NCBI GenBank assembly: GCA_902577905.1
Contig: CACHAQ010000012.1
Location: forward strand, 1-41,917
Direction: 5' to 3'
Length of the DNA stretch: 41,917 bases
Origin: an uncultured Alphaproteobacteria bacterium
Lineage (GTDB): Bacteria > Pseudomonadota > Alphaproteobacteria > HIMB59 > GCA-002718135
Shown: piece by piece, positions 3,271 to 19,721 of the stretch
How positions within the stretch are numbered: the first letter of the stretch is position 1
Layout of the letters: each line of letters starts with the position of its first letter
Program-made: the position numbers and the translations under genes
The notes under the pieces: model-generated
What the model was told of the DNA's origin: nothing
Seen by the model: the letters and a program-made list of their open reading frames with translations, nothing else
Database searches by the model: none

Positions 3271-3657
3271 TTAAGTCGAAAATTTTTCTAGCATTTCATT
3301 GGGAATTTTTGCAATTTTACCATTAAAAAAAACTGGAGTAATTAATATTTCCGAATCAACCAATAATTCTTCGTTCTTTTTAATTTGCTGATGAAACAAT
3401 ATTTTTACTTTAGAAATGTTTGTAATTTTTGTCGTAATTTTTAAAATATCCTCAAAATATGCTGGCTTTTTATAGTCTATTTTGCAATTCTTTACTACAA
3501 AATAGAATTTATATTTTTCTAGTATATTTTTGTGAGTGAAACCTAAATTATATAAGTAATCTGTTCTTCCTCTTTCAAGAAATTTTAGATAATTTGCATA
3601 ATAAACTCTTTCAGAAGCATCGGTATCTTCGTAATAAACTTTAATTTCTGTATTCAT
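3271..3657 (-). CDS. YbgC/4-hydroxybenzoyl-CoA-type hotdog thioesterase
   Basis: A 128-residue single hotdog-fold acyl-CoA thioesterase. The family signature YYEDTDASERVYYANYLKFL followed by ERGRTDYL is near the N-terminus; the first aspartate of this motif is the usual catalytic residue. I use the ATG at 3657 (MNTEIK), since the longer frame from 3669 needs a TTG start. The start lies 17 bases inside the upstream enolase-family gene, so expression is probably coupled. YbgC-type enzymes are often in the tol-pal operon, but no tol-pal genes are here. A role in the catabolic operon, hydrolysing an acyl-CoA formed downstream of the E1 enzyme, is only inference. Confidence 0.8.
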   Translation of the reverse strand: MNTEIKVYYEDTDASERVYYANYLKFLERGRTDYLYNLGFTHKNILEKYKFYFVVKNCKIDYKKPAYFEDILKITTKITNISKVKILFHQQIKKNEELLVDSEILITPVFFNGKIAKIPNEMLEKFST

Positions 3658-4768
3658 AAAATTGATCAATAAATTGATTTAAATTGTCTGATATCTGAAA
3701 ACCAATTCCATAATTTTCATTTAATTCTAGATAACCGTTAATAATTTGAAATGATGGATTTACTATTTTTGTTCTGAGTTCATTTTCATTAATATCATAT
3801 TCTAAATATCCATCAGGGTTTAAAGCTGACATAATATGAGCTGAAGAAATTAAACCAATAGCTCCTCCCAAATAATGTAACCATATTTTATTTTTTTTAA
3901 TATTTTTACCTAAATCTAAGATGTCAGTGATACCTCCATAACGTGCTAAATCTGGTTGTAAAAACTGTATTTGTGTATCATTATCTAAATCATAAAATTT
4001 TTTTAAATAAATTAGGTTTTCACCAAATGCTAAATTTTTGTGTAATTTGTTTAATTGAACTATTTCAGATATTGAATGGTTTGCAGATATAGGCTCTTCT
4101 AACCACAAATAATTGAAATTTTTTAATTTACTAATATTTTCATGAACATTATCTAAGCTCCATGCCTGGTTAACATCTAGCATATATTTTTCATTTGATT
4201 CTATAGTTTCTTCAATAGAAGTTATCGCTTTAATGTCTTCTAAAATATTAAAACCAATTTTAACTTTAAATCTATCTATGCCCAAAAGACGGGCTTCTTG
4301 AATTCTTTCTAAGTGTTCATCTCTGTTTATCCCACTTGCATAAACTTTAATTTTATTTTCGGATTGATCATTAATTAATTTGTTTAATGGTTTTTTTTTA
4401 ATTTTAGAAAAAAGATCCCATGCAGCACAATCGATGCCAGAAAAAATGTTTTCAAAAGCACCAAAGTCACCTGTTTGATTTTTAATTGAATTAAATTTTT
4501 CTGTTAAAAATTTTTTAACACTTGAGGGGTCTTCAAATTGAAAATTAATTAAAAAATCAATAAAATAGTCTTTTAAAATTTCAAATCTATATCTACCGCC
4601 GTGATTTGGAAAATTACACCATATTTCCCCTATTCCATTATTATTATTTTCATCATGAATTTCTATAACTAAAGAGGACCTAAATTTGATATTACCAAAA
4701 GAGGAAAGTACAGGATTTTTGTTTTTATATTTTAATAAATAAATTTTGATATTTGTTATTTTGATCAT
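3641..4768 (-). CDS. Enolase-superfamily (mandelate racemase/sugar acid dehydratase-like) enzyme
   Basis: A 375-residue enolase-superfamily protein with an N-terminal capping domain and a TIM barrel. The MR-type KxK motif lies at K168/K170 (RFKVKIG). The Mg2+ ligands appear as D198 (MLDVNQAW), E224 (WLEEPI) and E250 (GEN), and H298 is a candidate second base. Such enzymes abstract the alpha proton of a carboxylate; sugar acid dehydratases are the commonest marine alphaproteobacterial members. Substrate is not readable from the sequence. Its ATG overlaps the reductase stop by four bases (ATGA). In this cluster it would act on an aldonate, giving a 2-keto-3-deoxy acid, perhaps as an oxidative branch beside the aldolase route. 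Confidence 0.82.
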   Translation of the reverse strand: MIKITNIKIYLLKYKNKNPVLSSFGNIKFRSSLVIEIHDENNNNGIGEIWCNFPNHGGRYRFEILKDYFIDFLINFQFEDPSSVKKFLTEKFNSIKNQTGDFGAFENIFSGIDCAAWDLFSKIKKKPLNKLINDQSENKIKVYASGINRDEHLERIQEARLLGIDRFKVKIGFNILEDIKAITSIEETIESNEKYMLDVNQAWSLDNVHENISKLKNFNYLWLEEPISANHSISEIVQLNKLHKNLAFGENLIYLKKFYDLDNDTQIQFLQPDLARYGGITDILDLGKNIKKNKIWLHYLGGAIGLISSAHIMSALNPDGYLEYDINENELRTKIVNPSFQIINGYLELNENYGIGFQISDNLNQFIDQFYEYRN

Positions 4769-5640
4769 TTATTTTTAATAAAATTAAACATTGATGTCCA
4801 ATCTAGATCTCCAAATTCTTTTTTTGAAGCAGCATCATAAATTTTCTCCGCTGCCTTACCCATATTTAGATCTAAATTTTGCTCAGATGCAAATTGAATA
4901 GCAAGGCGTAAATCTTTTAATGCTAAATTATTTTTAAAACCTGGGGATACATCGTCTTTAAAAACTTTAGCAGGATATGTCAAATTCATGTGTCCCTTCC
5001 CGGCTGCAGTTGTGAGCATTAATTCAATAGCCATTTTTTTGTCTATACCTGATTTATCAGCTAAATTTAAAGTTTCTGCTGTCAATATATTTAAGGCAAT
5101 CGACATGTAGTTATTTATAATTTTCATTTTACTACCTGAGCCATTTTCACCACAATAAACTATATCACTTCCCATAGTTTCTAATAAATTTTTTATATTC
5201 TTAAATTCATCTTTATTACCACCTACCATTATTAAAAGAGTACCATCAATTGCATTCTGTACTAATCTTGCAACAGGTGCATCAAACATTTTTATGTTAT
5301 TTTTATTTAACTCCTCATTAATAAAAATAGAATCATTAGGATTGATTGTACTCATATCAATTAATACAAAATTTTTATTATCTTGATAAATCAAACCATT
5401 TTTACCAAAACATACTTCTTTCACATTGTCTCCATTTGGCAACATAGTAATGATTATTTCAACATCTTGAGATAATTCTGATAAACTTGATTTTTGGATA
5501 CCTCCTAGTTTTTCTAAAGTATTAACTGACTCAGAATTAACAAAAGGATCATAAAAGGATAAACTATAACCTTTGTTAATAATATTAGATGCCATCGGTA
5601 AACCCATTGTACCTATTCCAATAAATCCAATTTTTTTCAT
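4765..5640 (-). CDS. Beta-hydroxyacid dehydrogenase family; sulfolactaldehyde reductase (YihU)-like
   Basis: A 291-residue reductase of the 3-hydroxyisobutyrate dehydrogenase family, with a Rossmann motif GFIGIGTMGLPMASN and catalytic lysine K173. The usual substrate-loop SGG is replaced by DAPVARLVQNAIDGTL. From memory this matches E. coli YihU (DAPV/DVPV-GRTSANAITGTL) without gaps. The stretch KIINNYMSIALN and the later TAAGKGH also match YihU closely. R125, K173, N176 and S180 align with YihU R123, K171, N174 and S178, which bind or turn over sulfolactaldehyde. A good AAGGAGA ribosome-binding site precedes the ATG, 14 bases after the aldolase stop. It probably reduces the aldehyde released by that aldolase using NAD(P)H. 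Sulfolactaldehyde is the leading candidate; tartronate semialdehyde, succinate semialdehyde or lactaldehyde are alternatives. Confidence 0.8.
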   Translation of the reverse strand: MKKIGFIGIGTMGLPMASNIINKGYSLSFYDPFVNSESVNTLEKLGGIQKSSLSELSQDVEIIITMLPNGDNVKEVCFGKNGLIYQDNKNFVLIDMSTINPNDSIFINEELNKNNIKMFDAPVARLVQNAIDGTLLIMVGGNKDEFKNIKNLLETMGSDIVYCGENGSGSKMKIINNYMSIALNILTAETLNLADKSGIDKKMAIELMLTTAAGKGHMNLTYPAKVFKDDVSPGFKNNLALKDLRLAIQFASEQNLDLNMGKAAEKIYDAASKKEFGDLDWTSMFNFIKNK

Positions 5641-5654
5641 AACTATCTCCTTAT

Positions 5655-6578
5655 TTATAAATCTAAAGTCGATTTAAGTTTTTCAACTCTCTCCAAACCT
5701 TGATTTTCTAACCATTTAATAAATTCAGTATTTGATTGATTGCAAAATATATCAATTGAATCTTGCCATAAAGATCTTCCACATAAAAAACCAAGGCAAT
5801 TAATGTTTAATTTCATTGAAATAGACATTGATTTATAAAAATTACTAAATTTCATTCCAGCACTCAAAAATACAAATGGCTTCATTGTTTTACCAAATGT
5901 ATTCAATAATATTTCCTCACAATAACTAATTGTATTAACATTATTATAATCATCTAGAATACTTTCATTAAAAGGAAATTCAATTTTAATAATGCTAACA
6001 TTATAATCTGGTTTAGAAAATTCAGAGTAAAAATATGTTATATATTCATGCTTTTTCTTATTATATTCTTCATTAGAGTTTTTGGTTAAAGGATCATTGT
6101 ACAATAAGGGCTCAAATAAAAATGGTTTATTTAAATTTAAACACATTTTTCCTATTTTTTTTATTAAAATATTTTTTTTATTGTTTATTTCTTGAGGAGA
6201 GTCTGGATTATAATACATAAAAAACTTAATTGCCTTAAAATCATCTATTGTTTTATCTATTGATTTATTAGTTGGTAGTTTAGTAATTCTTTCAACATTA
6301 TCAATGTTATAAGCATCATCTTCATATGCAATAATTTTTGGTATATTTAAATTTTTAAACTTTTCATGTTTTTCATATGTATCAAAATCAAATAAAACAG
6401 CTGAAAGATTTGATCCTAATATTTCTATTATATTTTTTTTAAAAAAAAAATAATCCTCATCTTTAAAATTATTTTTTTTTTGATTTATAATTTCTTTTAG
6501 ACTCGTTCCCTGGTCTATTGCTAATGCAAAAAACTTTTTATTAATTAAGACATCATTAATTAATTCTTTTTGATGCAT
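5655..6578 (-). CDS. Class I aldolase, LacD (tagatose-bisphosphate)/YihT (sulfofructose-phosphate) type
   Basis: A TIM-barrel Schiff-base aldolase of 307 residues. Family blocks are visible in order: FALAIDQGTSLKEII, VLFDFDTY, MYYNPDSP, FLFEPLLY, the Schiff-base lysine K198 in IIKIEFP, VFLSAGM and the phosphate-binding GFLCGRSLW. I choose the ATG at 6578 because it forms a TGATG overlap with the dhaK stop; a 13-codon longer frame from ATG 6617 is possible. The family cleaves ketose (bis)phosphates to DHAP plus an aldehyde. The usual arginine of the DQR motif is glycine here (DQG), a change near the active site that may alter specificity. It sits between DhaK and a YihU-like reductase, so it likely cleaves a ketose 1-phosphate made by DhaKL. 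Confidence 0.8.
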   Translation of the reverse strand: MHQKELINDVLINKKFFALAIDQGTSLKEIINQKKNNFKDEDYFFFKKNIIEILGSNLSAVLFDFDTYEKHEKFKNLNIPKIIAYEDDAYNIDNVERITKLPTNKSIDKTIDDFKAIKFFMYYNPDSPQEINNKKNILIKKIGKMCLNLNKPFLFEPLLYNDPLTKNSNEEYNKKKHEYITYFYSEFSKPDYNVSIIKIEFPFNESILDDYNNVNTISYCEEILLNTFGKTMKPFVFLSAGMKFSNFYKSMSISMKLNINCLGFLCGRSLWQDSIDIFCNQSNTEFIKWLENQGLERVEKLKSTLDL

Positions 6579-7576
6579 CACAAGTGAAAATAAGGAACTG
6601 ATGAAGGCTCCAGCCATAATCTTCTCATTTCTTCACTAGAATTTAGTAAAGATATAGAAAATCCTCCACTATCTTGAGTTGTGATGTATTCATTAATTAA
6701 AGGTTTAAATATTTGAATATTATATTTTGATAAATATTCTTCTAAATCATTAAAAATTATTAATAATTCCATTAAAGTTGTAGACCCTGATCCATTAACA
6801 AATGGTATAACTATATCGCCCGATTTGTAATTAAAATCATCAAATATTTTATCTAACATAAATGAAATAATTTTTTTAGATGGTTGAATTTTTTGCCTAC
6901 CATATCCAGACTCTCCATGAACACCCATTCCTATAAAAATTTCATCTTCTTTAATTGTAAAAATTTTTTCTCCAGTAATTGGAGATGTGCCAGGGCTTAT
7001 TGCAACTGATAATGTTCTTGTATTATCAACAATTTGTTTTCCTAAACTTAGTAATTGTTTAATATCAGCACCTTTTTCAGATAAGGCTCCAAGTATTTTA
7101 TAAACAAATGTTGTACCTGCTCCTCCTCTTCTTTGCGCTTCATTTCCTTTTGGTGCAGAAGCTATGTCATCATACATAATTAAACATTTAGCATTTATAT
7201 TTTCATCTTCAGCCATTTCTATTGCCATTTCTCCATTCATTACATCACCAGAATGATTAGAAATTAATAATAAAATAGAAGAATGATCCTTAAAAATTTT
7301 AATTCCTTCAAATATTAAATCTCCTGAAGGAGCAGAAAAAATATCTCCGACAATATTAGCATCAAGCATACCCTCACCAACCCAACCTACGGCAATAGGC
7401 TCATGACCAGATCCGTTTCCTATCAAGATGGGAACTTTATTAAATTGTTTTTTATTTTTTCGACAAATAATTCTTTTATTTATTTCAGAAAATTTAACTC
7501 TGTCTGAATGTGATTTAACATAACCACTCAACATATCATCCACGATATTTATGTTTTTATTAATTATTTTTTTCAT
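6578..7576 (-). CDS. dhaK: Dihydroxyacetone kinase-like subunit DhaK
   Basis: A 332-residue DhaK subunit. The motif GNGSGHEPIAVGWVGEGML appears near residue 53 (most members have GGGSGHEP). NHSGDVMNG follows with the expected catalytic aspartate D111, and MGVHGESG contains H220, the histidine that binds the carbonyl substrate covalently as a hemiaminal. An AAGGAA site lies upstream of the ATG at 7576, which is 17 bases inside dhaL. DhaK homologues also phosphorylate erythrulose and other ketoses, so the name does not fix the substrate. With an aldolase immediately downstream, a longer-chain ketose 1-phosphate is a likelier product here than DHAP itself. Confidence 0.87.
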   Translation of the reverse strand: MKKIINKNINIVDDMLSGYVKSHSDRVKFSEINKRIICRKNKKQFNKVPILIGNGSGHEPIAVGWVGEGMLDANIVGDIFSAPSGDLIFEGIKIFKDHSSILLLISNHSGDVMNGEMAIEMAEDENINAKCLIMYDDIASAPKGNEAQRRGGAGTTFVYKILGALSEKGADIKQLLSLGKQIVDNTRTLSVAISPGTSPITGEKIFTIKEDEIFIGMGVHGESGYGRQKIQPSKKIISFMLDKIFDDFNYKSGDIVIPFVNGSGSTTLMELLIIFNDLEEYLSKYNIQIFKPLINEYITTQDSGGFSISLLNSSEEMRRLWLEPSSVPYFHL

Positions 7577-8171
7577 TATTAATTTCCTTAAAGAATTCTT
7601 TTAATATTATAGACGTTGAATATGCGCCTGGATCTATCACACCAACACCTTTTGAATCTAAAAACTTTGCTCTGCCAACACGAGCTTCCAAAGATTTTGT
7701 GTATTCAAGAGATTCATCAATTTTTGTAATTATTTTATCAAAATCAATAAGATTATTTTGAATTAATTCTTTATGAATAGGTACATAAATATCTAAAAAA
7801 CTTTTATCACCAAAATTTACTTTACCTCTTTTTTCTATTTTATTTATAGTATTTGAAAAAGTAGTTAAGATTGTATTATAAAGATCATTAAAATTTAAAT
7901 TACCTAATTCTTTAAAGAAGATTGTCATCAAAATACCAGAAGCGCCACCCATAGAAATCCTCATCAATTTCGAAATTTCATTCATAAATGATATTGAATT
8001 ATCAAATTCATTATTTGCTCTGAAATGAGATACAGCTTCCTCTAGGCCTCTTAATATTGTTGTACCGTGATCTCCATCACCAATCTCTTGATCAAGCATA
8101 TTAATTTTTTGACAGTTTTCTTTTATTATTAAACAAGAATTAGTTATCCATTTTTTATGAAATTCTATCAT
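7560..8171 (-). CDS. dhaL: Dihydroxyacetone kinase-like ADP/ATP-binding subunit DhaL
   Basis: A 203-residue DhaL subunit. The Mg-nucleotide motif is seen as EIGDGDHGTTI near residue 29. The phosphate-binding MGGASGILMTIFF and the C-terminal GVGVIDPGAYST follow. It pairs with DhaK, which overlaps it by 17 bases. No DhaM phosphotransferase subunit or other PTS component is in the window, so the pair probably uses ATP directly rather than phosphoenolpyruvate. The start forms an ATGA overlap with the upstream epimerase stop. ATP use is inference from the missing partner and needs the rest of the genome. Confidence 0.87.
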   Translation of the reverse strand: MIEFHKKWITNSCLIIKENCQKINMLDQEIGDGDHGTTILRGLEEAVSHFRANNEFDNSISFMNEISKLMRISMGGASGILMTIFFKELGNLNFNDLYNTILTTFSNTINKIEKRGKVNFGDKSFLDIYVPIHKELIQNNLIDFDKIITKIDESLEYTKSLEARVGRAKFLDSKGVGVIDPGAYSTSIILKEFFKEINNEKNN

Positions 8172-9010
8172 TTAATAAAATTCTTTAAATATTTATAAGA
8201 TTTTTGAATTGCATCAAAAGGATTATCTTCAATATTTCTCCATGTAAATAAATCTTTACTTGTCTCTTGGTTTGATTGAATAAACATTTCTAAAGTAACA
8301 TTACCAGAATAATTTATCGTATTTAAAGTTTCAAAAATTCTATTAAAATTTAACCCTCCTGAACCAGGTATACCTCTATCATTTTCTGCTACATGAAAAT
8401 GAAAAATATTATGATTTGCTTTGATAATTGACGCGCACATATCTTTCTCTTCTATATTCATATGATAAACATCTAACAATAAACCAATGTGAGGATGGTT
8501 GATCATCGAGCATAATTCTAAACCTTCATCAACAGTGTTAATAAAATCAGTTTCATATCTATTTAGAGGCTCTATTCCTAATTTAATATCTTTATCTTCT
8601 AAAATGTCTGTTAATCCGATTAGAGTATTTGATGAATTTTTATATTTTAGAGATTTATCTTTTCCATAATTATCACTTATTCCCCATGCAGTGTGTATAA
8701 CCCCAGATAAAATTTTTGACCCCATAAGAGAAGTCAAATTAATAGCCTCTATGAGTTTATCCTTACCTCTTTTTCTAATATTTTGATTATTACTTGTTAT
8801 ATCTTCATCCTTAGACAAACCTGTTGTACATGTAATATTAATATCTAGATCTTTACTTAATTTACCTATTTCTATGGCTGACTTTTCGTTTTGACCTAGT
8901 AATGATACTTCAACTGAAGAGTAACCAGCATCTCTACAAAGTTTAATATAAGGAGTAATATCCTCTGACCAATTTTTAACAAATGTTGCTGAATGAACTC
9001 CTAATTTCAT
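8168..9010 (-). CDS. Ketose 3-epimerase-like TIM barrel (D-tagatose/D-psicose 3-epimerase family)
   Basis: A 280-residue xylose-isomerase-like TIM barrel that resembles D-tagatose/D-psicose 3-epimerases. Metal and catalytic residues can be placed at E147 (GIEPLNRYE), D180 (LLLDVYHMNIEE), H206 (FHFHVAEN), R212 and E241 (TLEMF). Their spacing equals the E150/D183/H209/R215/E244 set of Agrobacterium psicose epimerase with a constant offset of three. This makes C3 epimerisation of a free ketose the best guess. Other members of this fold isomerise erythrulose phosphates, hydroxypyruvate or inosose. Both ends use ATGA overlaps, so it is translated together with the hydrolase-like gene and dhaL. Confidence 0.78.
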   Translation of the reverse strand: MKLGVHSATFVKNWSEDITPYIKLCRDAGYSSVEVSLLGQNEKSAIEIGKLSKDLDINITCTTGLSKDEDITSNNQNIRKRGKDKLIEAINLTSLMGSKILSGVIHTAWGISDNYGKDKSLKYKNSSNTLIGLTDILEDKDIKLGIEPLNRYETDFINTVDEGLELCSMINHPHIGLLLDVYHMNIEEKDMCASIIKANHNIFHFHVAENDRGIPGSGGLNFNRIFETLNTINYSGNVTLEMFIQSNQETSKDLFTWRNIEDNPFDAIQKSYKYLKNFIK

Positions 9011-10116
9011 TTAAGATTATTTAATTTTTTAAAAAAATCATTAAAAATTTCATCTCTATTAACACCAAAGGCTTCTCTAATAAGATGATTGCTATCATTT
9101 TTAATCCAGTACAATTCATTATCAAGTGATGAGGAATTGATAATTTTTGTTGGTACCCAATTTGGATTTATTAGCCAAGCAATATTAATAACATCCCATA
9201 TGACCCATGTTCTCCAACTTTGATCTAAAACACCTCTTTGTTTATGCAAAGGGTTATTTGTGTATAGAAAATATAAGTAATCACCTATTTCCCCTCTTCC
9301 TTTTACAAATTCTTTCATATCGGGTAATGAAAGAGTTAACTGCGCCCCCACATTGAAACCTGGTAAATAAACATGTGCAACACCACATTCAAAAAGTAAT
9401 TGAGATGCTAAAACATCTTGAACTAAATTCAATGAGTTTTTATTATTATTAAAACTGTATGTAGGAAAACCAGATGTCCAAACAACTACTAAATTTTTAA
9501 TAATTTCTGGGTTTGTTAAAAGAGCCGAAGCGATATTTGTAAGACACCCTATTGCACAAACATAAATCTTTTCATTTGAATATTTTTTACACATATCTAC
9601 AATGAATTTACTAGATTCAGTTACTATTGGTTCGTTATAATTTTCTAAATATTTAGGTGAACCTCTAAAAACCATTCCTTCATGTTTAATATTAAGTTTA
9701 TTAAATATAGTAATTATTTCTTGATAGCTTTTTTCAACTCCTTCTTCTGGTGTATCAAAATAAATATCATTTGGATGAATATTTGCATCTATGAGTCCAT
9801 TAACCCAAGATCTATAATCAGAAACTAAATTTTCTTTAGTATTATCAATAGTTTTATTGTTAGATATTATATCGAATGCTTCTATTAATTCGTCTTTATG
9901 ATGTTGGAAAGAATAAGGCTCAGCAGTAACTCCTAAAAGATCAATTTTATCTTTTGATAATAATGTCCATGCTAATGCAAATTGATCATCTATTTCATTA
10001 GCTGTATCTGTATCAAGTATCATTTTATTTTTTCCACTAGGTAAGGATAAATTGTTAAGCAAAATTTCTTTTGATAATTTTGGGAATTTATCTAAAATTT
10101 TTTTAGGAACTTGCAT
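9007..10116 (-). CDS. Nucleoside hydrolase-like protein (divergent)
   Basis: A 369-residue protein with an N-terminal calcium-site motif LDTDTANEIDDQFALAW. It resembles the nucleoside hydrolase DxDxxxDD motif but is two residues longer between the aspartates, as in a divergent branch of the family. The block IYVCAIGCLTNIASALLTNPEII is the typical family segment, and the conserved late aspartate could be the one in WVIWDVINIAW. Family members hydrolyse N-ribosides. In this cluster the substrate may be another furanoside, so I give no symbol. It starts 31 bases after the E1 beta stop and overlaps the epimerase by four bases. No signal peptide is seen, so it should act in the cytoplasm. Confidence 0.78.
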   Translation of the reverse strand: MQVPKKILDKFPKLSKEILLNNLSLPSGKNKMILDTDTANEIDDQFALAWTLLSKDKIDLLGVTAEPYSFQHHKDELIEAFDIISNNKTIDNTKENLVSDYRSWVNGLIDANIHPNDIYFDTPEEGVEKSYQEIITIFNKLNIKHEGMVFRGSPKYLENYNEPIVTESSKFIVDMCKKYSNEKIYVCAIGCLTNIASALLTNPEIIKNLVVVWTSGFPTYSFNNNKNSLNLVQDVLASQLLFECGVAHVYLPGFNVGAQLTLSLPDMKEFVKGRGEIGDYLYFLYTNNPLHKQRGVLDQSWRTWVIWDVINIAWLINPNWVPTKIINSSSLDNELYWIKNDSNHLIREAFGVNRDEIFNDFFKKLNNLK

Positions 10117-10147
10117 GAAATAAAATATTTACTTTAATTTTTTAAAT

Positions 10148-12138: not shown

Positions 12139-12244
12139 TTTTTATGAAAATACTAACGTTTAATATTAAAATATAGAAATAAGATTTAACTTAAGATTAA
12201 ATAATTGACAATAGATACATTATATCATTTAGTATAATTCGGAT
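12139..12244. promoter_or_regulatory. Divergent promoter region between the two catabolic operons
   Basis: The only space between the leftward and rightward operons. For the leftward operon, TATAAT is read on the minus strand at 12224-12219, with TTCATA 17 bases upstream at 12247-12242. For the rightward operon, TATAAT lies at 12233-12238, only six bases before the isomerase ATG, and no Shine-Dalgarno sequence is seen there. That would give a leaderless or almost leaderless mRNA. An imperfect palindrome centred on CTTAAG with ATTTAA and TTAAAT arms at 12184-12202 could be an operator. These are read by eye in AT-rich DNA, so they are tentative. Confidence 0.45.
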
Positions 12245-13684
12245 ATGAAGGAAGTATTGACAATTGGTTTTGTAGCTACAGCAATTAGTCCTTACTTTTC
12301 AGAGGAACAACAGGTAAGAATAAAATCCGAAAATCATCTAAAAAAAATCATTGCAGAATATGACGCTAAATTAATTTGTTTCCATAAAACTATATTTTCT
12401 AAAGAGGACTCAGTGGAGGCAGAAAAATTTTTTAAAAACAAAATTGATTTTTTAATATTACAAACAAGTTCATGCAGTTCAGGAGAACAATTATACCCTC
12501 TTTGTAATATTACAAATAAAATGGGTTTATGGGCAGTTCCAGATATTGAAAATGAAGGTGATGTAAAATTACACTCTTTGGTTTCTGTAAGTCATTATTT
12601 AGGAATAATTAAAAAAATACTTCATGAAAAAAAAATAAAAACTAAATGGTTTTATAATTATGGTGATACTGATGAATTTAAAAACAAGTTTTTGATTACT
12701 TTAAGATCATTGATAGCAGATAAAAAAATTAAACAATCAAAAATAGGATTAGTTGGTGGTATATCTCCAGGTTTTGACAATATGATTGTCGATAATAAAA
12801 AAATAAAACAAAATATTGGATCAACAATTGAAGAAACAACAATTAAAGAATTAATTTCTTTAGCAAAAAGTTTTGATCAATCATTAATTGATCAAGAAAT
12901 AAAAAAAATAAAAAATGCTGCATCTTCAATCTCAGTATCAGATGAAGAATCATTTAATAAAGTAACAAGAGTATATTTTGCATTAAAAAAAATGAGGCAT
13001 GAAAATGACTGGGACTCTATGGCAGTCCAATGTTGGTCTCAATTTCAAGAATTATATGGAATTGCTCCTTGCATGGCATATGGTTGGATCGGTAGCGAAG
13101 ATGGTATTGCGGTATCTTGTGAAGGAGATGTTCAAGGTTCATTAAGCATGCTATTATTAAATTACATATCAAGTAGTGATAAATCATCTACACTTTTAGA
13201 TCTTGCAACATTTGATACTAAAGCTGATGCCGTATTAATGTGGCACTGCGGAGTGTCGCCAAGACATTTTGCGAATGAAGATGGAATAAAATGGGTTGAT
13301 CATAGTACGTTAGGAAGAAAAACAGATAAAAAATATGGCGTTGCTGGAGATCAAGTATTTAAAGCTCAAAAATCTACAACAACATACTTAGGAAATAATG
13401 CTGAAAGAATATTAATTATAAATTCGGAAATTTTTGAACATAATAATAAAGGTTTTGATGGAACAAGAGGATGGTTTAAAGAAACAAAATTAAACAGATC
13501 TCATATTTCGGCAGAAAACCTTATAAATACTCTAAATATTATTGGACATGAACATCATTATGCTGTCGGTCAAGGAGATTATAGTAAAGAATTATTAGAA
13601 TTTGCAGCTTGGAATGACTTAAAGCTTGTAGACGAGATTCCTTTAGTAGATTATATTTCACCAAAGGATAATGAATCAAATTAA
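12245..13684 (+). CDS. L-fucose/L-arabinose isomerase family protein
   Basis: A 479-residue member of the L-fucose isomerase-like family (COG2407 type). Probable metal ligands are E293 (SCEGDVQGS), D324 or D319 (LLDLATFD) and H438 (GHEHHYAVGQGDY), with the conserved MWHCGVSPRHF between them. The family interconverts aldoses and ketoses using Mn2+. It includes fucose and arabinose isomerases and, as I recall, the sulfoquinovose isomerase of the Bacillus transaldolase sulfoglycolysis pathway. No clear ribosome-binding site precedes the ATG, while a TATAAT sits six bases before it. It heads the operon for the ABC transporter and GH51 enzyme and faces the kinase/aldolase operon, so it likely makes the ketose those enzymes use. 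Confidence 0.83.
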   Translation: MKEVLTIGFVATAISPYFSEEQQVRIKSENHLKKIIAEYDAKLICFHKTIFSKEDSVEAEKFFKNKIDFLILQTSSCSSGEQLYPLCNITNKMGLWAVPDIENEGDVKLHSLVSVSHYLGIIKKILHEKKIKTKWFYNYGDTDEFKNKFLITLRSLIADKKIKQSKIGLVGGISPGFDNMIVDNKKIKQNIGSTIEETTIKELISLAKSFDQSLIDQEIKKIKNAASSISVSDEESFNKVTRVYFALKKMRHENDWDSMAVQCWSQFQELYGIAPCMAYGWIGSEDGIAVSCEGDVQGSLSMLLLNYISSSDKSSTLLDLATFDTKADAVLMWHCGVSPRHFANEDGIKWVDHSTLGRKTDKKYGVAGDQVFKAQKSTTTYLGNNAERILIINSEIFEHNNKGFDGTRGWFKETKLNRSHISAENLINTLNIIGHEHHYAVGQGDYSKELLEFAAWNDLKLVDEIPLVDYISPKDNESN

Positions 13685-13699
13685 ATTATTATTTGATTC
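13673..13699 (+). other. Hairpin across the isomerase stop codon
   Basis: A perfect inverted repeat: GAATCAAAT at 13673-13681 and ATTTGATTC at 13691-13699, with a nine-base loop containing the isomerase TAA. The binding protein's AGGAGG ribosome site starts nine bases later. No T-tract follows, so this is probably not a terminator. It may set the mRNA processing boundary ahead of the highly expressed binding protein gene. AT-rich sequence makes chance repeats common. Confidence 0.4.
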
Positions 13700-13717
13700 T
13701 ATATATTAGGAGGAAAG

Positions 13718-14968
13718 ATGAAAATTAAACTTAAATTTCTTACCTTAACATTTATAAGTTTATTTTTTTCAAAATTAGTATTTGCTGAAACTGCACCTGG
13801 ATTTAATTCATGGGATGATGTTGTTAAAGCAGCTGATGGCGGACAGGTAAATGTGTACATGTGGGGTGGATCAGACGCTATCAATGGTTTTGTTGATGAC
13901 TTTTATGGAGTTCCATTAAAAGAAAAATATAACATAACTTTGAACAGAGTTCCTTTAAAAGGAACAGTTGACGCTGTGAACCAAGTACTAAGTGAGAAAG
14001 AAGCTGGAGTAACTGGCGATAATGGAAATATTGATTTGATTTGGATTAATGGAGAAAATTTCTGGACATTAAAACAAGCTAATCTTCTTTATGGACCATT
14101 TGCTGCTGGTTTACCTAACAGTGAATTTGTTGCTTGGGACAATCCAGCAGTTAACTTAGACTTTGGAAGACCTGTTGAAGGTATGGAAAGTCCATGGTCT
14201 AGTGCTCAGTTCCACTTTATGTATGACTCAGCTAGAAATAATTATGATGATATGCCTCGAAGTTATGCTGAATTAAGTAATTGGATAGCAGAAAACCCTG
14301 GAAGATTTACTTACATAAGACCTGGTAAAGGTGGATTTGTTGGTACTAGATTTGTAAAACAAATTTTCTTTGAGCTAAGTGGTGGACATGCGCAGTGGGT
14401 AGGTCCATTCAATCAAGAATTATATGATAAGTGGGCTCCAGAAGTTTGGAAATTATTAAATTCTTGGGAAAAAGATCTTTGGAGAGGTGGAGAAACTTAT
14501 CCAAAAGATAATGCAGAAATGCATAGTCTATTTGCTAATGGTGAAGTTGATTTAGACTTTACACAATCTCCAAGAGGTGCTGGACCTACAAATACTGCCG
14601 GAACAACACCTCCAACATCAAGAGCATTTGCTTTTTATGAAAATATGATCGGAGATTTCAATTATTGGGCTATTCCTTATAACGCTCCTAACAAAGCTGC
14701 TGCACTAGTATATGCAAACCTAGTATTAGAACCTGAACTACAAGCTGCTCAAGTACAACCAGCAAATGGTTTCTGCTGTGGTTGGGGTATTAGCACGGCT
14801 AAAGTTACAGATGCTGCTGGAAAAGCTGCAATAGCTGAAGCTCAAAATAATCTTGGAGATGCCGCTGAGGATCAAGACATCCTTGCGAAGGCTCTTGTTT
14901 CTGACATTGCTGCAGAATATCAAGATTTAATTGAAGCTGATTGGGAAGCAAACGTACTTTTAAAATAA
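13718..14968 (+). CDS. ABC transporter substrate-binding protein, YnjB-like
   Basis: A 416-residue periplasmic binding protein with a clear Sec signal peptide (KIKLKFLTLTFISLFFSKLV, cleaved near FA-ET). The mature N-terminus with VNVYMWGGSDAINGFVDDF and the later LIWINGENFWTLK resembles the little-studied YnjB family (COG4134), which accompanies the YnjC/YnjD transporter. It has the strongest ribosome-binding site I see in the cluster, AGGAGG at 13708-13713. Codon use looks less AT-biased than in neighbouring genes, consistent with high expression. A GC-rich hairpin just after its end may limit transcription into the permeases. The ligand is unknown; the downstream GH51 enzyme suggests a glycoside or oligosaccharide. 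Confidence 0.87.
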   Translation: MKIKLKFLTLTFISLFFSKLVFAETAPGFNSWDDVVKAADGGQVNVYMWGGSDAINGFVDDFYGVPLKEKYNITLNRVPLKGTVDAVNQVLSEKEAGVTGDNGNIDLIWINGENFWTLKQANLLYGPFAAGLPNSEFVAWDNPAVNLDFGRPVEGMESPWSSAQFHFMYDSARNNYDDMPRSYAELSNWIAENPGRFTYIRPGKGGFVGTRFVKQIFFELSGGHAQWVGPFNQELYDKWAPEVWKLLNSWEKDLWRGGETYPKDNAEMHSLFANGEVDLDFTQSPRGAGPTNTAGTTPPTSRAFAFYENMIGDFNYWAIPYNAPNKAAALVYANLVLEPELQAAQVQPANGFCCGWGISTAKVTDAAGKAAIAEAQNNLGDAAEDQDILAKALVSDIAAEYQDLIEADWEANVLLK

Positions 14969-14988
14969 AATAATATTTTATTAAGAAA

Positions 14989-15864
14989 ATGGGCGGAGAA
15001 AGATTAAAAATTATCTTATCTTTAACTCCGCCCCTTTTAATTATTTTTACTCTTTTTTTTGGAGGAATTTTTTATGGATTTTTACAAAGTTTAGGGTACC
15101 AACCAGCAATTGGAAAATATGAAATAAATTTTTCAGCGTATTACAATGTTATGTTTTCCGAAAGATATGCAAAATTATTTTGGACTGGCTTAGGATTAAA
15201 TTTATGGGTAAGTTTTGCTAGTACTTTTTTAGCAGCAGTTTTTGCTTTGTTTGGTGCTCTAGCAATAAGAAAAACATTTTTTGCAAAAACAATTTGTAAT
15301 TTTATATATTCATTAAACTTGCCAATGCCTCATTTAGTTGTAGCAGTTGGCATTATATTCGTATTTTCTCAAAGTGGTTTATTAGCTCGTTTCGCATCTC
15401 AAATTGGATTAATTGGGAGTCCAGGAGATTTTCCCGTATTAGTTAAAGATAAATATGGTTTAGGTATTATTCTTGCTTATATTTGGAAAGAAGCAGCATT
15501 CTTTTTTATAATTTTAATGTCAGTATTACAATCTTTAGGAGAAAATTTTGAAGAACTTGCTCAAAGCTTAGGTGCAAATAGATGGCAAAGATTTCGATAT
15601 GTTATTTTACCCTTAGTTATGCCAAATCTATTTTCTGCATCAATAATAGTATTTGCTTTTAGTTTTGGTGCATATGAAGTTCCAGCCTTGCTAGGTGTAA
15701 TTTATCCTCAAATGTTACCTGTTATGGCATTTGAATTTTTCTTGAACCCTGATCTTAATGCAAGAAGTGAAGGGATGGCATTAAGCATTATTATTGCAAT
15801 AATAGTAATGATTTTAGTTGTATTTTATTTTTGGTTAACTCAGGCAAAAATTAGGAAGGATTAA
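14989..15864 (+). CDS. ABC transporter permease 1 (YnjC-like N-half)
   Basis: A 291-residue inner membrane protein with about six transmembrane helices. The EAA loop reads EELAQSLGANRWQRFRYVILPLVMP near residues 190-215 and contacts the ATPase. E. coli YnjC is a single fused protein of both halves; here the two halves are separate genes. The ATG at 14989 is immediately followed by GGGCGGAG, the left arm of a GC-rich hairpin, and no strong ribosome-binding site is seen. Initiation may therefore be inhibited. The stop overlaps the next permease start (TAATG). Confidence 0.87.
   Translation: MGGERLKIILSLTPPLLIIFTLFFGGIFYGFLQSLGYQPAIGKYEINFSAYYNVMFSERYAKLFWTGLGLNLWVSFASTFLAAVFALFGALAIRKTFFAKTICNFIYSLNLPMPHLVVAVGIIFVFSQSGLLARFASQIGLIGSPGDFPVLVKDKYGLGIILAYIWKEAAFFFIILMSVLQSLGENFEELAQSLGANRWQRFRYVILPLVMPNLFSASIIVFAFSFGAYEVPALLGVIYPQMLPVMAFEFFLNPDLNARSEGMALSIIIAIIVMILVVFYFWLTQAKIRKD
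14991..15060 (+). terminator. GC-rich hairpin with downstream T-runs at the start of the permease gene
   Basis: GGGCGGAG at 14991-14998 pairs with CTCCGCCC at 15026-15033. An inner AAAGAT/ATCTTT pairing extends the stem. Downstream, T-rich stretches run to about 15060. This is far more GC-rich than its surroundings. It is placed just behind the binding protein gene, where partial terminators or mRNA-stabilising hairpins often raise binding protein over permease levels. Here it lies inside the permease coding sequence and starts in the start codon. It may act as an attenuator, an mRNA-stability element, or both. Confidence 0.5.
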
Positions 15865-16727
15865 TGAATAATAATTTAAAAAAAATAAATATATATGCAA
15901 TTTATTTAGGTGCAATTATTTTAATATTACCTCTTATAGCCTTCTTTATTAATGCATTTTCTTTTAGATGGTTTTATCCTCAAGTTATTCCAAAAGAGTT
16001 AAGTCTACAAGCATGGGTAAGATTAAAATTAATACCTAAACCTGGTCAAAGAACTTTCGAAGGCTTTATAGATCTTTGGGCTTCTAATCCTGCAGTTATC
16101 AAAGCATTATTAAATAGTTTAAGTATTGGTTTCTTAGTGACAATTGTTTCAATAATAATTGCATTACCGGCTGCAAGAGTTCTGGGTTTATTAAATTTTA
16201 GATTTAAAAAATTAATTATTTTTATAATGGTCTCGCCCACTATACTTCCTCCAATAGCTTTTGTTTTAGGGCTGAATATCAATTTTATATCATGGGGTTT
16301 TTCAGGTAATTATTTTGGAGTATGTTTAGTGCATTTAGTACCTATTATGCCATACGTAGTTCTTACTATGACTGGAATATTTGCAAACTATAACCCTGAC
16401 TTTGAACATCAAGCAAGAACTTTAGGGGCAAATAAAACTAGAACATTTTTATTAATTACTTTACCTGCTATAGCTCCAGGTATGGTTGTTGCGGCATTAT
16501 TTGCATTTTTAGTTTCATGGAGTCAGTATCTTTTAACATTTTTAATTGGTGCGGGAAAAGTTATGACACTACCACTCCTGGTTTTTTCTACTGCTTCATC
16601 AGGGAATCCAGCTTTAACAGCTGCAATATCAATTATATTTATTTTTCCTGCTATATTGATATTATTTTTTACGTCCAAATTTGTTTCTGGTGAATCTGGA
16701 GCTACTAGTGGATTTGGGAAAATATAA
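15864..16727 (+). CDS. ABC transporter permease 2 (YnjC-like C-half)
   Basis: A 287-residue permease with about six hydrophobic helices and an EAA loop FEHQARTLGANKTRTFLLI followed by LPAIAPG. It forms the heterodimeric channel with permease 1, whose stop it overlaps by one base (TAATG). The ATPase gene starts three bases after its stop. The two permeases resemble Fe3+/thiamine/polyamine-type importers in layout, but the paired binding protein is YnjB-like. Confidence 0.87.
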   Translation: MNNNLKKINIYAIYLGAIILILPLIAFFINAFSFRWFYPQVIPKELSLQAWVRLKLIPKPGQRTFEGFIDLWASNPAVIKALLNSLSIGFLVTIVSIIIALPAARVLGLLNFRFKKLIIFIMVSPTILPPIAFVLGLNINFISWGFSGNYFGVCLVHLVPIMPYVVLTMTGIFANYNPDFEHQARTLGANKTRTFLLITLPAIAPGMVVAALFAFLVSWSQYLLTFLIGAGKVMTLPLLVFSTASSGNPALTAAISIIFIFPAILILFFTSKFVSGESGATSGFGKI

Positions 16728-16729
16728 CA

Positions 16730-17785
16730 ATGAGTAAACTAAATATTAAAAATTTAATCAAAAGTTTTCCTAGCATGGATAGACCAGCAGTAAATAATGT
16801 AAATTTAGATATTGAAAGTGGAGAACTTGTTGCATTTCTCGGACCTTCAGGTTGTGGTAAAACAACTATTTTGAAAATGATCACAGGATTGTTTCAACCT
16901 GATAGTGGGGATATTATTCTTGATGAACAATCACTATTAAAAATTCCAACTGAAAAAAGAGGGGTAGTTATGGTTTTCCAAAATTATCTTTTGTTCCCTT
17001 ATATGAATGTAAATGAAAATGTTGGATTTGCATTAAAAATGAAAGGTGTAGATAAAAATATAATAGATCAAAAAGTTAAAGAAATGTTAGAACTGGTAAA
17101 ATTACCAGATATTGGATTAAGAAAGCCAAAACAGCTTTCTGGAGGTCAACAACAAAGAGTTGCGCTAGCCAGAGCATTGATTTCTAATCCTAGAATATTG
17201 CTTCTAGACGAACCATTAAGTAATCTTGACGCACATTTAAGAGATGAAATGCGAGATTTAATTGTGACTATTCAACAAAAATTAAAAGTAACAACAATAT
17301 TTGTAACACATGATCAAGAAGAAGCGGTTCTTCTAGCAGATAAGATAGCTTTAATTTTTGATGGCGAATTACAAAATTTTACTTCTCCAAAAAATTATTA
17401 TGAAAAACCAAAAAATATAAAAGCTGCAAAATTTTTTGGTGGAGTTAATTTTATTAATGCAAAGAAACATAATGATAATCTATCTACTAATATTGGAACA
17501 ATTCATTACAAAGGTGAAAATTATACAGATTTAAACGAAGATAATATAATAACTATTAGACCCGAAAATATAAAGTTAAGTAAAAATAATGATTTCAATA
17601 ATAATTCATTCAAAGGCTTAATTAAATCAGTTATATTTTCAGGAACTCATACTAGATACAAAATTATAGTAAACGATTTAGAATTAGAATGCTCATTACA
17701 ATCTGTAGGATTACAAGACATAAAAACAGATGATACAATTTATGTTCATTTACCCAGTGATAAAATATGGGCAATGAATGAATAA
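16730..17785 (+). CDS. ABC transporter ATP-binding protein (YnjD/PotA-like)
   Basis: A 351-residue importer ATPase. Walker A is GPSGCGKTT near residue 38, the Q-loop VFQNYLLFPYMNV, the signature LSGGQQQRVALARAL, Walker B LLLDEPLSNLD and H-loop FVTHDQEEAVLLADK. A C-terminal TOBE-like domain follows from about residue 240, as in PotA/UgpC-type ATPases. It completes a one-binding-protein, two-permease, one-ATPase importer. The GH51 gene overlaps its 3' end by eight bases, tying hydrolase production to the transporter. Confidence 0.9.
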   Translation: MSKLNIKNLIKSFPSMDRPAVNNVNLDIESGELVAFLGPSGCGKTTILKMITGLFQPDSGDIILDEQSLLKIPTEKRGVVMVFQNYLLFPYMNVNENVGFALKMKGVDKNIIDQKVKEMLELVKLPDIGLRKPKQLSGGQQQRVALARALISNPRILLLDEPLSNLDAHLRDEMRDLIVTIQQKLKVTTIFVTHDQEEAVLLADKIALIFDGELQNFTSPKNYYEKPKNIKAAKFFGGVNFINAKKHNDNLSTNIGTIHYKGENYTDLNEDNIITIRPENIKLSKNNDFNNNSFKGLIKSVIFSGTHTRYKIIVNDLELECSLQSVGLQDIKTDDTIYVHLPSDKIWAMNE

Positions 17786-19721
17786 AAATATTGCAACAAT
17801 TTCTTTTTCAAAAAATAATATACTATCAAGACTTTCAAAACATATGTTTGGAACTAATCTAGAACATATTGGAGATGCAATTTATAGAAATGGAATTTGG
17901 GCAGAAGTAGTAGAAAATAGAAAATTTTGTGGTCCTGATAAATTAGTTTGGAACAATGGTTTAGAAAATGATCATTTAGATTTTGGCATTGTACAGCCTT
18001 GGAAAGGTTATAACGCTTCTGCAAAACATGTTATGTACGCACATTCTAACTCAGAATATATTGTAAAAGGTGAAGAGATTATTAGTAGATACGGGAGTGG
18101 CAAACAATCCCAACAAATTACTATTCGAGAAAAATCAAAAATACAAAGAGGTATTAAGCAAAAGATTAATATTATCGACTCAAAAGATGAATACGAATTC
18201 AGTATTTATTTCAAAGGTGAAAATCAGAAAGTATTTATAAATATTGGAGAAATAAATTTTACATTTAATGCAAATAAAAATTGGAAAAAAATTAAAAAAA
18301 CATTTACTTTTAAAAAAAGTAATAGCCTCAAAACCCTATCTATCTCTATTAAGTCTGGAACAATTTTTATTGCAAACTGTTCATTAATGCCAAAAAATAC
18401 AATTTTTGGATTTAGAAAAGATATCACAGAAATGATTAAAGAATGGAAGCCAAGTTATATTCGTTGGCCTGGAGGGAATTTTCTTTCAGGTTATAATTGG
18501 CAGAATGGAGTTGGAAAAAAAGATTATCGCCTTCCCTACTACGATCATGCTTGGTATCAATGGGAGTATAACGATGTAGGTACAGATGAATTTATGAAAT
18601 GGTGTGAATATATTGGAAGCGAACCAATGATTACAATCAATACTGGTGATGGTACTATCGAACAGGCAAAAAATTGGATCGAGTATATGATTGGTTCAAT
18701 TAATACAAAATATGGAAAATTAAGATATAAAAACGGTAGAAAAAATCCTTATGAATTGCAAACGATATTCATAGGGAATGAAATGTTTGGAGGATGGCAA
18801 ATTGGTCATACAGATCCAATTACTTATGCAAATAAATATAATTCTTTTGTAAAAGAGTTAAAAAAATTAAATAAAAAATTACGATTTATTGCAGTTGGTG
18901 CCTGTTCAGATCATTTTGGTCATTGGAATGAGTATGTATTAAAAAATATTAAAGAAAAAATTGATGAATTGAGTGTCCATTATTATTCTATAAGAACCGA
19001 GAAAGATAAAAAACATCCAGATTATAAAACACGTTATATTCCAACGGTTGCTGCCGCAACAGAAGTAAGATTAATGTTAGATAGAACGATAAGAGAAATA
19101 AAAAAATATTCCAATAAGAATATTAAAATAGCTTTTGATGAATGGAACACTTATGTAGAAGCAACTCCACCTTATTTTATTGAGAATTATAATATTGCTG
19201 ATGCAATTTATGCTGCTTCACTTCTTAACGCATGTATAAATAGAGGGGATATAATAACCAACACTGGCATTTATCATTTGATAAATGTAATGGGTAATTA
19301 CCGAATAGAAAAAAAGAAAATTTGGAAAACTCCAACAACACTTGTTTTAGAACTTTATACAAAATTTCATAAAGGTAAAATTTTAAAATCAGTTGTTAAT
19401 TCTTCAAATTTTGTTTCTTTTAAATTAGGTAAACAGCCTGAATATAAAAATAATAAACTCATTGACTCTGCAGTAACAATGAATGGAAAACATATGTGTA
19501 TGTCTGTAGTTAATAAATCAAGTTCAGAGAAAATACTTTTAAAAGTTCCATATCTAGATAGGATTGCTGAAAATTATTGTATTGAAGGATCTAATAAAGT
19601 TGACCTTAATACTTATGAAAACACTTCAAGGGTTAAGATCAAAAAAAATTCCTTAAAAACAAGTAAAGGATTTTTAATACTACCACCGCACTCGATAAGT
19701 GTTGTACTTTTTAATATATAA
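17778..19721 (+). CDS. GH51-type alpha-L-arabinofuranosidase-like glycoside hydrolase, cytoplasmic
   Basis: A 647-residue glycosidase. An N-terminal beta-sandwich (to about 205, CBM-like) precedes a TIM barrel with the GH51 landmarks RWPGGNFLSGYNWQNGVG and DVGTDEFMKWCEYIGSEPM. The acid/base glutamate is E335 in IGNEMFGGWQIGH and the nucleophile E455 in FDEWNTY. A C-terminal beta domain ends the protein. Both catalytic glutamates are present. No signal peptide is seen, so it should act on imported glycosides in the cytoplasm. GH51 mostly releases L-arabinofuranose, but some members have other activities. The eight-base overlap with the ATPase gene indicates coupling. The true aglycone or sugar may differ from arabinose, since the cluster has no canonical AraB/AraD. 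Confidence 0.83.
   Translation: MNKNIATISFSKNNILSRLSKHMFGTNLEHIGDAIYRNGIWAEVVENRKFCGPDKLVWNNGLENDHLDFGIVQPWKGYNASAKHVMYAHSNSEYIVKGEEIISRYGSGKQSQQITIREKSKIQRGIKQKINIIDSKDEYEFSIYFKGENQKVFINIGEINFTFNANKNWKKIKKTFTFKKSNSLKTLSISIKSGTIFIANCSLMPKNTIFGFRKDITEMIKEWKPSYIRWPGGNFLSGYNWQNGVGKKDYRLPYYDHAWYQWEYNDVGTDEFMKWCEYIGSEPMITINTGDGTIEQAKNWIEYMIGSINTKYGKLRYKNGRKNPYELQTIFIGNEMFGGWQIGHTDPITYANKYNSFVKELKKLNKKLRFIAVGACSDHFGHWNEYVLKNIKEKIDELSVHYYSIRTEKDKKHPDYKTRYIPTVAAATEVRLMLDRTIREIKKYSNKNIKIAFDEWNTYVEATPPYFIENYNIADAIYAASLLNACINRGDIITNTGIYHLINVMGNYRIEKKKIWKTPTTLVLELYTKFHKGKILKSVVNSSNFVSFKLGKQPEYKNNKLIDSAVTMNGKHMCMSVVNKSSSEKILLKVPYLDRIAENYCIEGSNKVDLNTYENTSRVKIKKNSLKTSKGFLILPPHSISVVLFNI

Follow-up and report, generated by a model that had tools for sequence, protein, structure and literature searches.

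The dihydroxyacetone phosphate (DHAP) shunt uses MtnN, MtnK, MtnA and Ald2 to carry the 5-modified ribose of 5'-deoxynucleosides through a ketose 1-phosphate to DHAP and an aldehyde, a logic that is set out in three papers (PMC12632272, PMC10986504 and PMC6079011). The sulfoglycolytic Embden-Meyerhof-Parnas pathways (sulfo-EMP and sulfo-EMP2) employ an isomerase (YihS or SqvD), a C1 kinase (YihV or SqiK), an aldolase that yields DHAP (YihT or SqiA) and the reductase YihU. The fucose and D-arabinose pathway (FucI, FucK, FucA and FucO) also proceeds by way of an isomerase and a ketose 1-phosphate to DHAP and an aldehyde that is reduced. Counterparts of these steps can be recognized in a divergent gene island from an uncultured alphaproteobacterium of the HIMB59 lineage. 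The stretch of DNA analysed here (the window, 41,917 nucleotides) is the entire contig C12 of a 1.45-Mb genome, G000, that is 87% complete. Its GC content is low (25-33%).

We tentatively propose that the island encodes an isomerase-first variant of the DHAP shunt that acts on furanosides of C5-blocked (5-deoxy-5-substituted) D-ribose, an assignment that we place somewhat short of probable. A ketose-1-phosphate route is the best reading of the locus; its reactions, their order and the substrate are all deduced from protein families, conservation and individual residues. A high-affinity ABC importer would take up the furanoside, from which a GH51 enzyme (O-glycosides) and a nucleoside hydrolase (N- or O-ribosides) would release 5-X-5-deoxyribose. 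A FucI/AraA-fold isomerase would convert this sugar to a 5-X ribulose. D-ribulose has the 3R configuration, and a 3-epimerase would turn it into a xylulose with the 3S configuration found at C3 of fructose bisphosphate, tagatose bisphosphate and sulfofructose phosphate. DhaKL would then phosphorylate C1, because C5 is blocked from phosphorylation, a LacD-type aldolase would cleave the product to DHAP and X-CH2-CHO, and a YihU-like enzyme would reduce this aldehyde. Xylulose is usually phosphorylated at O5, so that C1 phosphorylation followed by aldol cleavage is sensible if C5 is blocked. The original prediction for this locus had put forward the same succession of import, hydrolysis, isomerization, C3 epimerization, C1 phosphorylation by DhaKL, cleavage and reduction, and both gene content and conservation support it. 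The genes that would supply these steps are the following.

12245 to 13684, plus strand: FucI/AraA-fold aldose-ketose isomerase (AlphaFold model, Foldseek)
8168 to 9010, minus strand: ketose 3-epimerase-like TIM barrel (Pfam AP_endonuc_2; NCBIfam psicose 3-epimerase, 207 bits, cut-off 300)
7560 to 8171, minus strand: DhaL subunit (Pfam Dak2; NCBIfam DhaL, 130 bits, cut-off 138)
6578 to 7576, minus strand: DhaK subunit, proposed ketose C1 kinase (Pfam Dak1)
5655 to 6617, minus strand: LacD/DeoC-type class I aldolase, proposed ketose-1-phosphate aldolase (Pfam DeoC)
4765 to 5640, minus strand: YihU-like beta-hydroxyacid dehydrogenase or aldehyde reductase (NCBIfam sulfolactaldehyde reductase, 302 bits, cut-off 348)
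9007 to 10116, minus strand: IUNH-family nucleoside hydrolase, NEIDDQ type (Pfam IU_nuc_hydro)
17778 to 19721, plus strand: GH51 furanosidase (Pfam Alpha-L-AF_C; NCBIfam ArfA, 238 bits, cut-off 625)
13718 to 14968, plus strand: YnjB-type periplasmic solute-binding protein, SBP_bac_8 (NCBIfam PRK11622, 379 bits, cut-off 203)
14989 to 15864, plus strand: ABC permease 1 (Pfam BPD_transp_1)
15864 to 16727, plus strand: ABC permease 2 (Pfam BPD_transp_1)
16730 to 17785, plus strand: ABC ATPase (Pfam ABC_tran, TOBE_2)

Profile or structure matches bear out the families named when the island was first noted (importer, GH51, isomerase, epimerase-like barrel, DhaK, DhaL, LacD/YihT-type aldolase and YihU-like reductase). 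That list was incomplete, however, because it omitted the nucleoside hydrolase, a pair of E1 alpha and beta subunits and an enolase-superfamily protein.

The isomerase has no phmmer match in PDB, and its profile matches to AraA and FucI are weak. Its AlphaFold model (pLDDT 90.8) is matched by Foldseek to L-arabinose isomerase (4f2d, TM-score 0.78) and FucI (1fui, TM-score 0.75). All 41 PDB matches with E <=0.001 are AraA, FucI or D-arabinose isomerase, with query TM-scores of 0.71-0.79. The predicted structure thus has the fold of L-arabinose and L-fucose isomerases, in agreement with the FucI-family assignment made at the outset. In an alignment of 20 hand-chosen sequences E293 and D319 are invariant and H438 is kept in at least 90%; we take all three to be metal ligands. 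SftI is the only NCBIfam model matched, at 138.4 bits against a cut-off of 700. The presence of a 3-epimerase ahead of the aldolase fits a D-ribo substrate combined with a LacD-type aldolase, and this enzyme would be superfluous for L-arabinose.

Sugar-releasing enzymes of the module all belong to furanosidase families, which are the nucleoside hydrolase, GH51 and, in relatives, a PNP-family protein and an ADP-ribosylglycohydrolase. Where the DHAP shunt has a nucleosidase for 5'-modified nucleosides, the island has a nucleoside hydrolase with altered 5'-OH ligand positions. Glu166 and Asn160 of IUNH enzymes are presumably the 5'-OH ligands, and no open-licence paper confirming these roles was found. 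In the window's hydrolase these positions are occupied by S228 and, by our own alignment count, F222, and N168 is kept as N230. Serine replaces Glu166 in all 23 hand-chosen core hydrolases that were aligned (the window's and 22 relatives). This pattern suggests an enzyme that dispenses with the classical 5'-OH ligands. The GH51 protein is probably cytoplasmic, with no evident signal peptide at an N-terminus that was judged by eye. The binding protein of the importer is 86-94% identical in distant HIMB59-type copies of the island, and it has no PDB match from which its ligand could be read.

At the four positions checked, G55, H58, D111 and H220 of DhaK match G53, H56, D109 and H218 of the E. 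coli K-12 protein, which we take to include the catalytic His and Asp and the His that binds substrate covalently. DhaM was not found among the open reading frames (ORFs) scanned, a search that did not extend to the remainder of the genome. The aldolase passes the NCBIfam PRK12858 cut-off (211 bits, cut-off 184). K211, E169, K131 and R281 are invariant among 13 hand-chosen sequences, a set that leaves out three module-side proteins from other phyla (L106, L109 and L081). By homology to LacD, K211 is presumably the Schiff-base lysine and R281 the arginine that binds the C1 phosphate. The arginine of a DQR motif, which we take to contact the distal phosphate in LacD, is replaced by glycine in 13 of 13 window-type aldolases (Gly37 in the window). 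The same arginine is present in YihT and in all five aldolases from loci of the type found on contig C22 of this genome (see below). Its replacement makes a phosphate or sulfonate at the distal end of the substrate less likely.

Related loci were sought by a scan of public genomes with the nucleoside hydrolase as query, from which the best 80 were taken. Ten near-identical HIMB59-type loci (L058-L066 and L070) were dropped before counting, and 39 of the remaining 70 qualify as core loci, in that two or more of five further families (DhaK, isomerase, LacD, epimerase and binding protein) are encoded close by, as judged by best BLAST hit at E 1e-5. Of these 39, five (L068, L069 and L071-L073) are still HIMB59-type islands and 34 come from other lineages. 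Three plasmid loci were added to bring the core set to 42; L079 represents a second strain of the species that carries one of these plasmids (L034). Truncation of many loci, at contig ends or at the limit of the 10-kb flank, makes the counts of tail genes lower bounds. By record title, hosts include Rhodobacterales, Rhizobiaceae, Devosia, SAR116, Granulosicoccaceae, Anaerolineae and Trueperaceae, and many are marine. Because the core recurs across several phyla, the genes constitute a supported catabolic module rather than a chance assembly. The original prediction had staked itself on conservation of the gene set across relatives. The set is conserved, but the aldolase is lost in some copies. 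A class-wide survey of co-occurrence is uninformative, as matches are too rare (isomerase profile in 11 of 385 genomes, hydrolase profile in three of 385, several of them paralogues).

On each of the three Rhodobacterales plasmids an unbroken series of genes encodes epimerase, DhaL, DhaK, LacD-type aldolase, a GntR regulator, isomerase, ABC importer and nucleoside hydrolase. An aldehyde dehydrogenase (ALDH) gene lies between the aldolase and GntR genes in two of the three, and MFS, thiolase-like, DUF35-like and AMP-ligase genes lie upstream. GH51 homologues occur in 11 of the 42 core loci, six of which are not HIMB59-type. A PNP-family protein, whose family was checked on one representative, occurs in ten of the 42, and one locus has an ADP-ribosylglycohydrolase. 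In many relatives from other lineages the YihU-like reductase is replaced by ALDH, an acyl-CoA ligase or CaiB transferase, and a pair of thiolase-like and DUF35-like proteins. Thiolase-like homologues are present in 18 of the 42 by our own count, many of them accompanied by AMP-ligase or CaiB genes.

The representative thiolase-like protein is encoded at 5172-6715 of L034, with homologues in L032, L075, L083, L085, L101, L103, L106, L108, L110, L113 and L118. Many of these genes precede DUF35-like genes and acyl-CoA ligases or sit near CaiB transferases. The nucleophilic Cys, catalytic His and second Cys, at the presumed thiolase motif positions, are missing in 12 of 12 aligned sequences. A true thiolase in this tail is ruled out by these altered motif positions, and the Cys-less proteins are possibly retro-aldolases or some other C-X lyase. 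Two SAR116 loci and one Anaerolineae locus have sulfatase-family genes in the flanks of the module (L085 4372-5907, with homologues in L088 and L120). In Marinovum, an arylsulfatase gene (MALG_04863) lies upstream of the MFS gene of L034.

Three other loci of the same genome narrow the choice of substrates. On contig C22 (L035 7098-13565) an isomerase scores 288.8 bits to SftI (cut-off 700), versus 138.4 for the window's. It is accompanied by a PfkB-family kinase, a galactose-mutarotase-like protein and sulfopyruvate decarboxylase subunits alpha and beta (ComDE) that pass curated cut-offs (161.9 over 147.95 and 221.9 over 221.5 bits). A D-2-hydroxyacid dehydrogenase and a Gfo/Idh-type protein were also recognized there by eye. 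In G050, G059 and three further alphaproteobacteria, a related isomerase has a LacD-type aldolase as its neighbour, and two of these loci also have ALDH. By its gene families, C22 is a better sulfosugar candidate than the window's island.

Contig C27 (L139 6089-14579) encodes MtnK (482.6 over 275 bits), MtnA (442.7 over 271) and a fusion of class II aldolase and dehydrogenase, together with a second nucleoside hydrolase, a paralogue of the window's, and importer-like genes. MtnK-type kinases and MtnA-type isomerases are absent from the island. The C27 locus is a predicted DHAP shunt of the canonical type reported in PMC12632272 and PMC10986504. With such a shunt already present, another set of similar logic suggests that the substrate differs. 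C10 encodes a ribokinase that scores above its cut-off, and plain ribose therefore has its own route. The island probably serves a substrate that C22, C27 and ribokinase do not handle.

Several observations weigh against the proposal that the island degrades C5-blocked ribosides. LacD enzymes are stereochemically lax, which weakens the argument from the epimerase, and GH51 enzymes are best known for L-arabinofuranosides. Four of six related hydrolases from non-core loci likewise lack the classical Glu166, and Asp stands at this position in the C27 paralogue. Glycine at the DQR arginine is not universal either, as module-side aldolase-like proteins from other phyla read DQR (L106), DHQ (L109) and DHL (L081). 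In some copies of the island the aldolase appears dispensable, because G002 (92% complete) and G033 (67% complete) lack LacD, G059 has a broken copy, and in L071 an ALDH-family gene occupies its place. The window's LacD might also serve the C22 locus, which has no adjoining aldolase. The E1 pair and the enolase-superfamily protein have no place in the proposed route and are unexplained. Separately, most of the operon persists in the copies where the aldolase is absent, broken or replaced (G002, G033, G059 and L071).

The reductase also stands against the proposal. Its best PDB match is a sulfolactaldehyde reductase (6sm7, 213 bits; the next scores 154), and it keeps the equivalents of R123, N174 and S178 of YihU, as do five of five relatives aligned. 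We take these to be the sulfonate-binding residues; in 3-hydroxyisobutyrate dehydrogenase (2gf2) the R123 position is occupied by Gly. These features of the reductase are the main evidence for an anionic aldehyde.

In a sulfo-EMP-like alternative, which we regard as unlikely though not negligible, DhaKL would replace Pfk. A sulfosugar glycoside would be hydrolysed, isomerized, phosphorylated at C1 and cleaved, and the YihU-like enzyme would reduce the aldehyde formed alongside DHAP, either sulfolactaldehyde or, if the sugar is a 5-sulfopentose, sulfoacetaldehyde. Such a route would explain why the reductase retains those three residues and reaches 302 of the 348 bits of its profile, and it accords with SftI being the only NCBIfam match of the isomerase. 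In addition, sulfosugar-like loci contain paralogues of both the isomerase and the aldolase, and the window's aldolase is the sole LacD-type match found in G000 (87% complete). However, the genome has a separate sulfosugar-like locus with ComDE and a far more SftI-like isomerase, and window-type aldolases lack the arginine kept in YihT and all five aldolases from C22-type loci. An epimerase and a nucleoside hydrolase have no role in known sulfoglycolysis, and the island families include no GH31-type sulfoquinovosidase, Pfk-type kinase or exporter. The island's glycosidases are GH51 and the nucleoside hydrolase, with no YihQ-type GH31 enzyme among them (the rest of the genome was not searched), and DhaK and DhaL are its sole kinases, with no PfkB- or PfkA-type sulfofructose kinase. 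For these reasons (the better C22 locus, the isomerase scores of 138.4 and 288.8 bits and the aldolase without Arg) the 'sulfosugar-type' label originally attached to the island is disfavoured. The accompanying statement that known sulfoglycolytic kinases are all of PfkB type was incomplete, since SqiK is PfkA-type (PMC9594981).

An unmodified pentofuranoside (of L-arabinose, D-arabinose or D-ribose) degraded through a pentulose 1-phosphate to DHAP and glycolaldehyde is also unlikely. GH51 is an arabinofuranosidase family and the isomerase fold is nearest to L-arabinose isomerase, both of which favour this alternative. Nonetheless, the genome has a ribokinase, D-xylulose could directly join the pentose phosphate pathway, and L-ribulose (3S,4S) would suit a LacD-type aldolase with no C3 epimerization. 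The Glu that serves as 5'-OH ligand is missing from the hydrolase, and the CoA-ligase and thiolase-like tails of relatives are ill-suited to glycolaldehyde. The earlier suggestion of L-arabinose as a non-sulfonated substrate gives a poor account of the epimerase and nucleoside hydrolase.

A longer furanose, with a chain beyond C5, is very unlikely. The aldehyde from C4 onward would be a beta-hydroxy acid precursor, and the tail in relatives would activate such an acid as a CoA ester for a retro-aldolase cut by the thiolase-like/DUF35-like pair. The thiolase-like protein does precede a DUF35-like gene, lacks the Cys, His and second Cys in all 12 sequences aligned and has homologues in 18 of the 42 core loci, many with AMP-ligase or CaiB, but the tail may instead act on the aglycone, it is missing from the HIMB59-type island, and we know of no abundant natural furanoside with so long a chain.

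For the favoured route, from C5-blocked ribosides to DHAP and X-CH2-CHO, one specific candidate is arsenosugar catabolism, although we consider it highly improbable. GH51 and the nucleoside hydrolase would release 5-deoxy-5-dimethylarsinoyl-ribose, and the route would lead to DHAP and dimethylarsinoylacetaldehyde. In the version with the reductase this aldehyde would become dimethylarsinoylethanol (DMAE), in that with ALDH dimethylarsinoylacetate (DMAA), and in that with the ligase and the Cys-less thiolase-like/DUF35-like pair dimethylarsinic acid (DMA) would be split off. Arsenosugars fit a neutral C5 group, beta-D-ribofuranosides and the many marine hosts. The route also fits arsenosugar metabolites of the DMA, DMAE and DMAA types, which PMC6656958 names for human urine. 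The MFS genes of three Rhodobacterales loci have ArsK as their best NCBIfam match, at 75-102 bits, far below the cut-off of 400. Against arsenosugars, the MFS proteins tested from other lineages resemble lactate or phosphoglycerate carriers, and this reading leaves the E1 pair, the enolase and the YihU arginine unaccounted for.

The remaining features of the island have no assigned part in the route.

10148 to 11164, minus strand: 2-oxoacid-dehydrogenase-type E1 beta (NCBIfam PRK09212, 349 bits, cut-off 321)
11161 to 12138, minus strand: 2-oxoacid-dehydrogenase-type E1 alpha (Pfam E1_dh; NCBIfam PDH_E1_alph_y, 304 bits, cut-off 394)
3641 to 4768, minus strand: enolase-superfamily (mandelate-racemase-like) protein (Pfam MR_MLE_C/N)
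12139 to 12244, no strand: divergent intergenic region between the two operons

Homologues of E1 are also encoded in L081 and L100, with a weak match (29-35%) at the edge of L121. A suspected fusion of E1 alpha and beta in L100 was not borne out, as only E1 beta matches there. The island form of E1 beta (85-99%) is present in three of three island-bearing genomes and none of eight island-free genomes, of which seven have a 44-45% paralogue and one has no match. DhaK shows the same distribution (three of three and none of eight). The enolase-superfamily protein is a probable sugar-acid dehydratase, judging by its families; its NCBIfam match to arabinonate dehydratase reaches 103 bits (cut-off 650). 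Its gene comes after YihU in other island lineages.

Ten minus-strand ORFs (3271-12138) and six plus-strand ORFs (12245-19721) diverge from a 106-bp gap. The two divergent operons noted at first are thus confirmed, but the sixteenth gene (YbgC) is a flank and the conserved unit has 15 genes (3641-19721). YbgC (3271-3669) and CysE (19802 on) lie outside the island, because copies elsewhere have other neighbours. Between those neighbours the order from enolase to GH51 is kept in copies whose isomerases are 76-85% identical. L044 and L045 are whole, L046 (G033) and L047 (G002) lack LacD, L043 (G059) has an extra GntR gene and broken aldolase and enolase frames, and L042 is cut by a contig end. 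Among 110 genomes of the family, 21, one of them the window's, have an isomerase of at least 75% identity, which we take as the mark of the island.

Thirteen genomes were searched for the flanks, and YbgC and CysE are 1.24 kb apart in all five island-free ones that have both on one contig. In both island-free genomes that were read, the gap is filled by a lone enolase-superfamily gene, 62% identical to the window's (L161 574-1689 and L162 557-1672), which may be a remnant or a resident gene. The enolase gene is therefore linked to the island yet able to stand alone, and its membership is uncertain.

Some records deserve separate mention. Island copies in L064 (titled Euryarchaeota) and L066 (Gammaproteobacteria) have 91-100% protein identity to the window's, and both records are probably mis-binned or mislabelled. 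The copy in L071 (titled Gammaproteobacteria) has 43-90% protein identity. Outside the island, the window carries an IMES-4 RNA motif (29172-29251, minus strand) and a glycine riboswitch aptamer (28408-28493, minus strand).

No paper in the open-licence literature appears, from titles and the starts of abstracts, to describe this gene set, which is weak evidence of absence. By term search, one HIMB59 paper (PMC10308909) does not mention fucose, arabino-, sulfoquinovose, nucleoside or aldolase, and another (PMC10734472) does not mention dihydroxyacetone, isomerase, arabinofuranosidase, tagatose, sulfo- or YnjB. HIMB59, SAR11 and Pelagibacter are likewise not named in the main text of a survey of sulfoquinovose degraders in aquatic habitats, published in 2026 (PMC13372026). 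The genome probably belongs to the HIMB59/AEGEAN-169 clade, whose sugar transport is described as broader in range than that of SAR11 (PMC10308909). The island hints at a dissolved marine furanoside substrate that is as yet unaccounted for. It also suggests that the logic of the DHAP shunt can be built from different enzyme families, alongside a canonical shunt and a sulfosugar-like locus in one genome. The module occurs in a streamlined marine lineage and in unrelated bacteria, and it gives a short list of testable substrates.

Comparison with described systems sets the island apart from each of them. Carter et al. reportedly characterized, in 2018, DhaK-family ketose kinases of apulose and erythrulose catabolism. 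Like the one proposed here, these kinases act on a ketose other than dihydroxyacetone; the isomerase and aldolase families are reportedly different. An apiose route with a DhaK-type kinase was also considered, and nothing on it was found in the open-licence literature. The fucose and D-arabinose pathway has an FGGY kinase, a class II aldolase and no epimerase or hydrolases, in contrast to the DhaKL kinase and class I aldolase of the island. With the sulfo-EMP pathways the island has in common an isomerase in the superfamily of SqvD and an aldolase in that of YihT (PMC9594981). It differs from them by its DhaKL, epimerase, nucleoside hydrolase and GH51, an aldolase that lacks the conserved Arg and the absence of a GH31 sulfoquinovosidase. 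Compared to the DHAP shunt, the island would isomerize first and then phosphorylate. Its FucI/AraA-fold isomerase, DhaKL and LacD-type class I aldolase replace MtnA, MtnK and the class II aldolase, and a 3-epimerase, GH51 and a dedicated importer are added.

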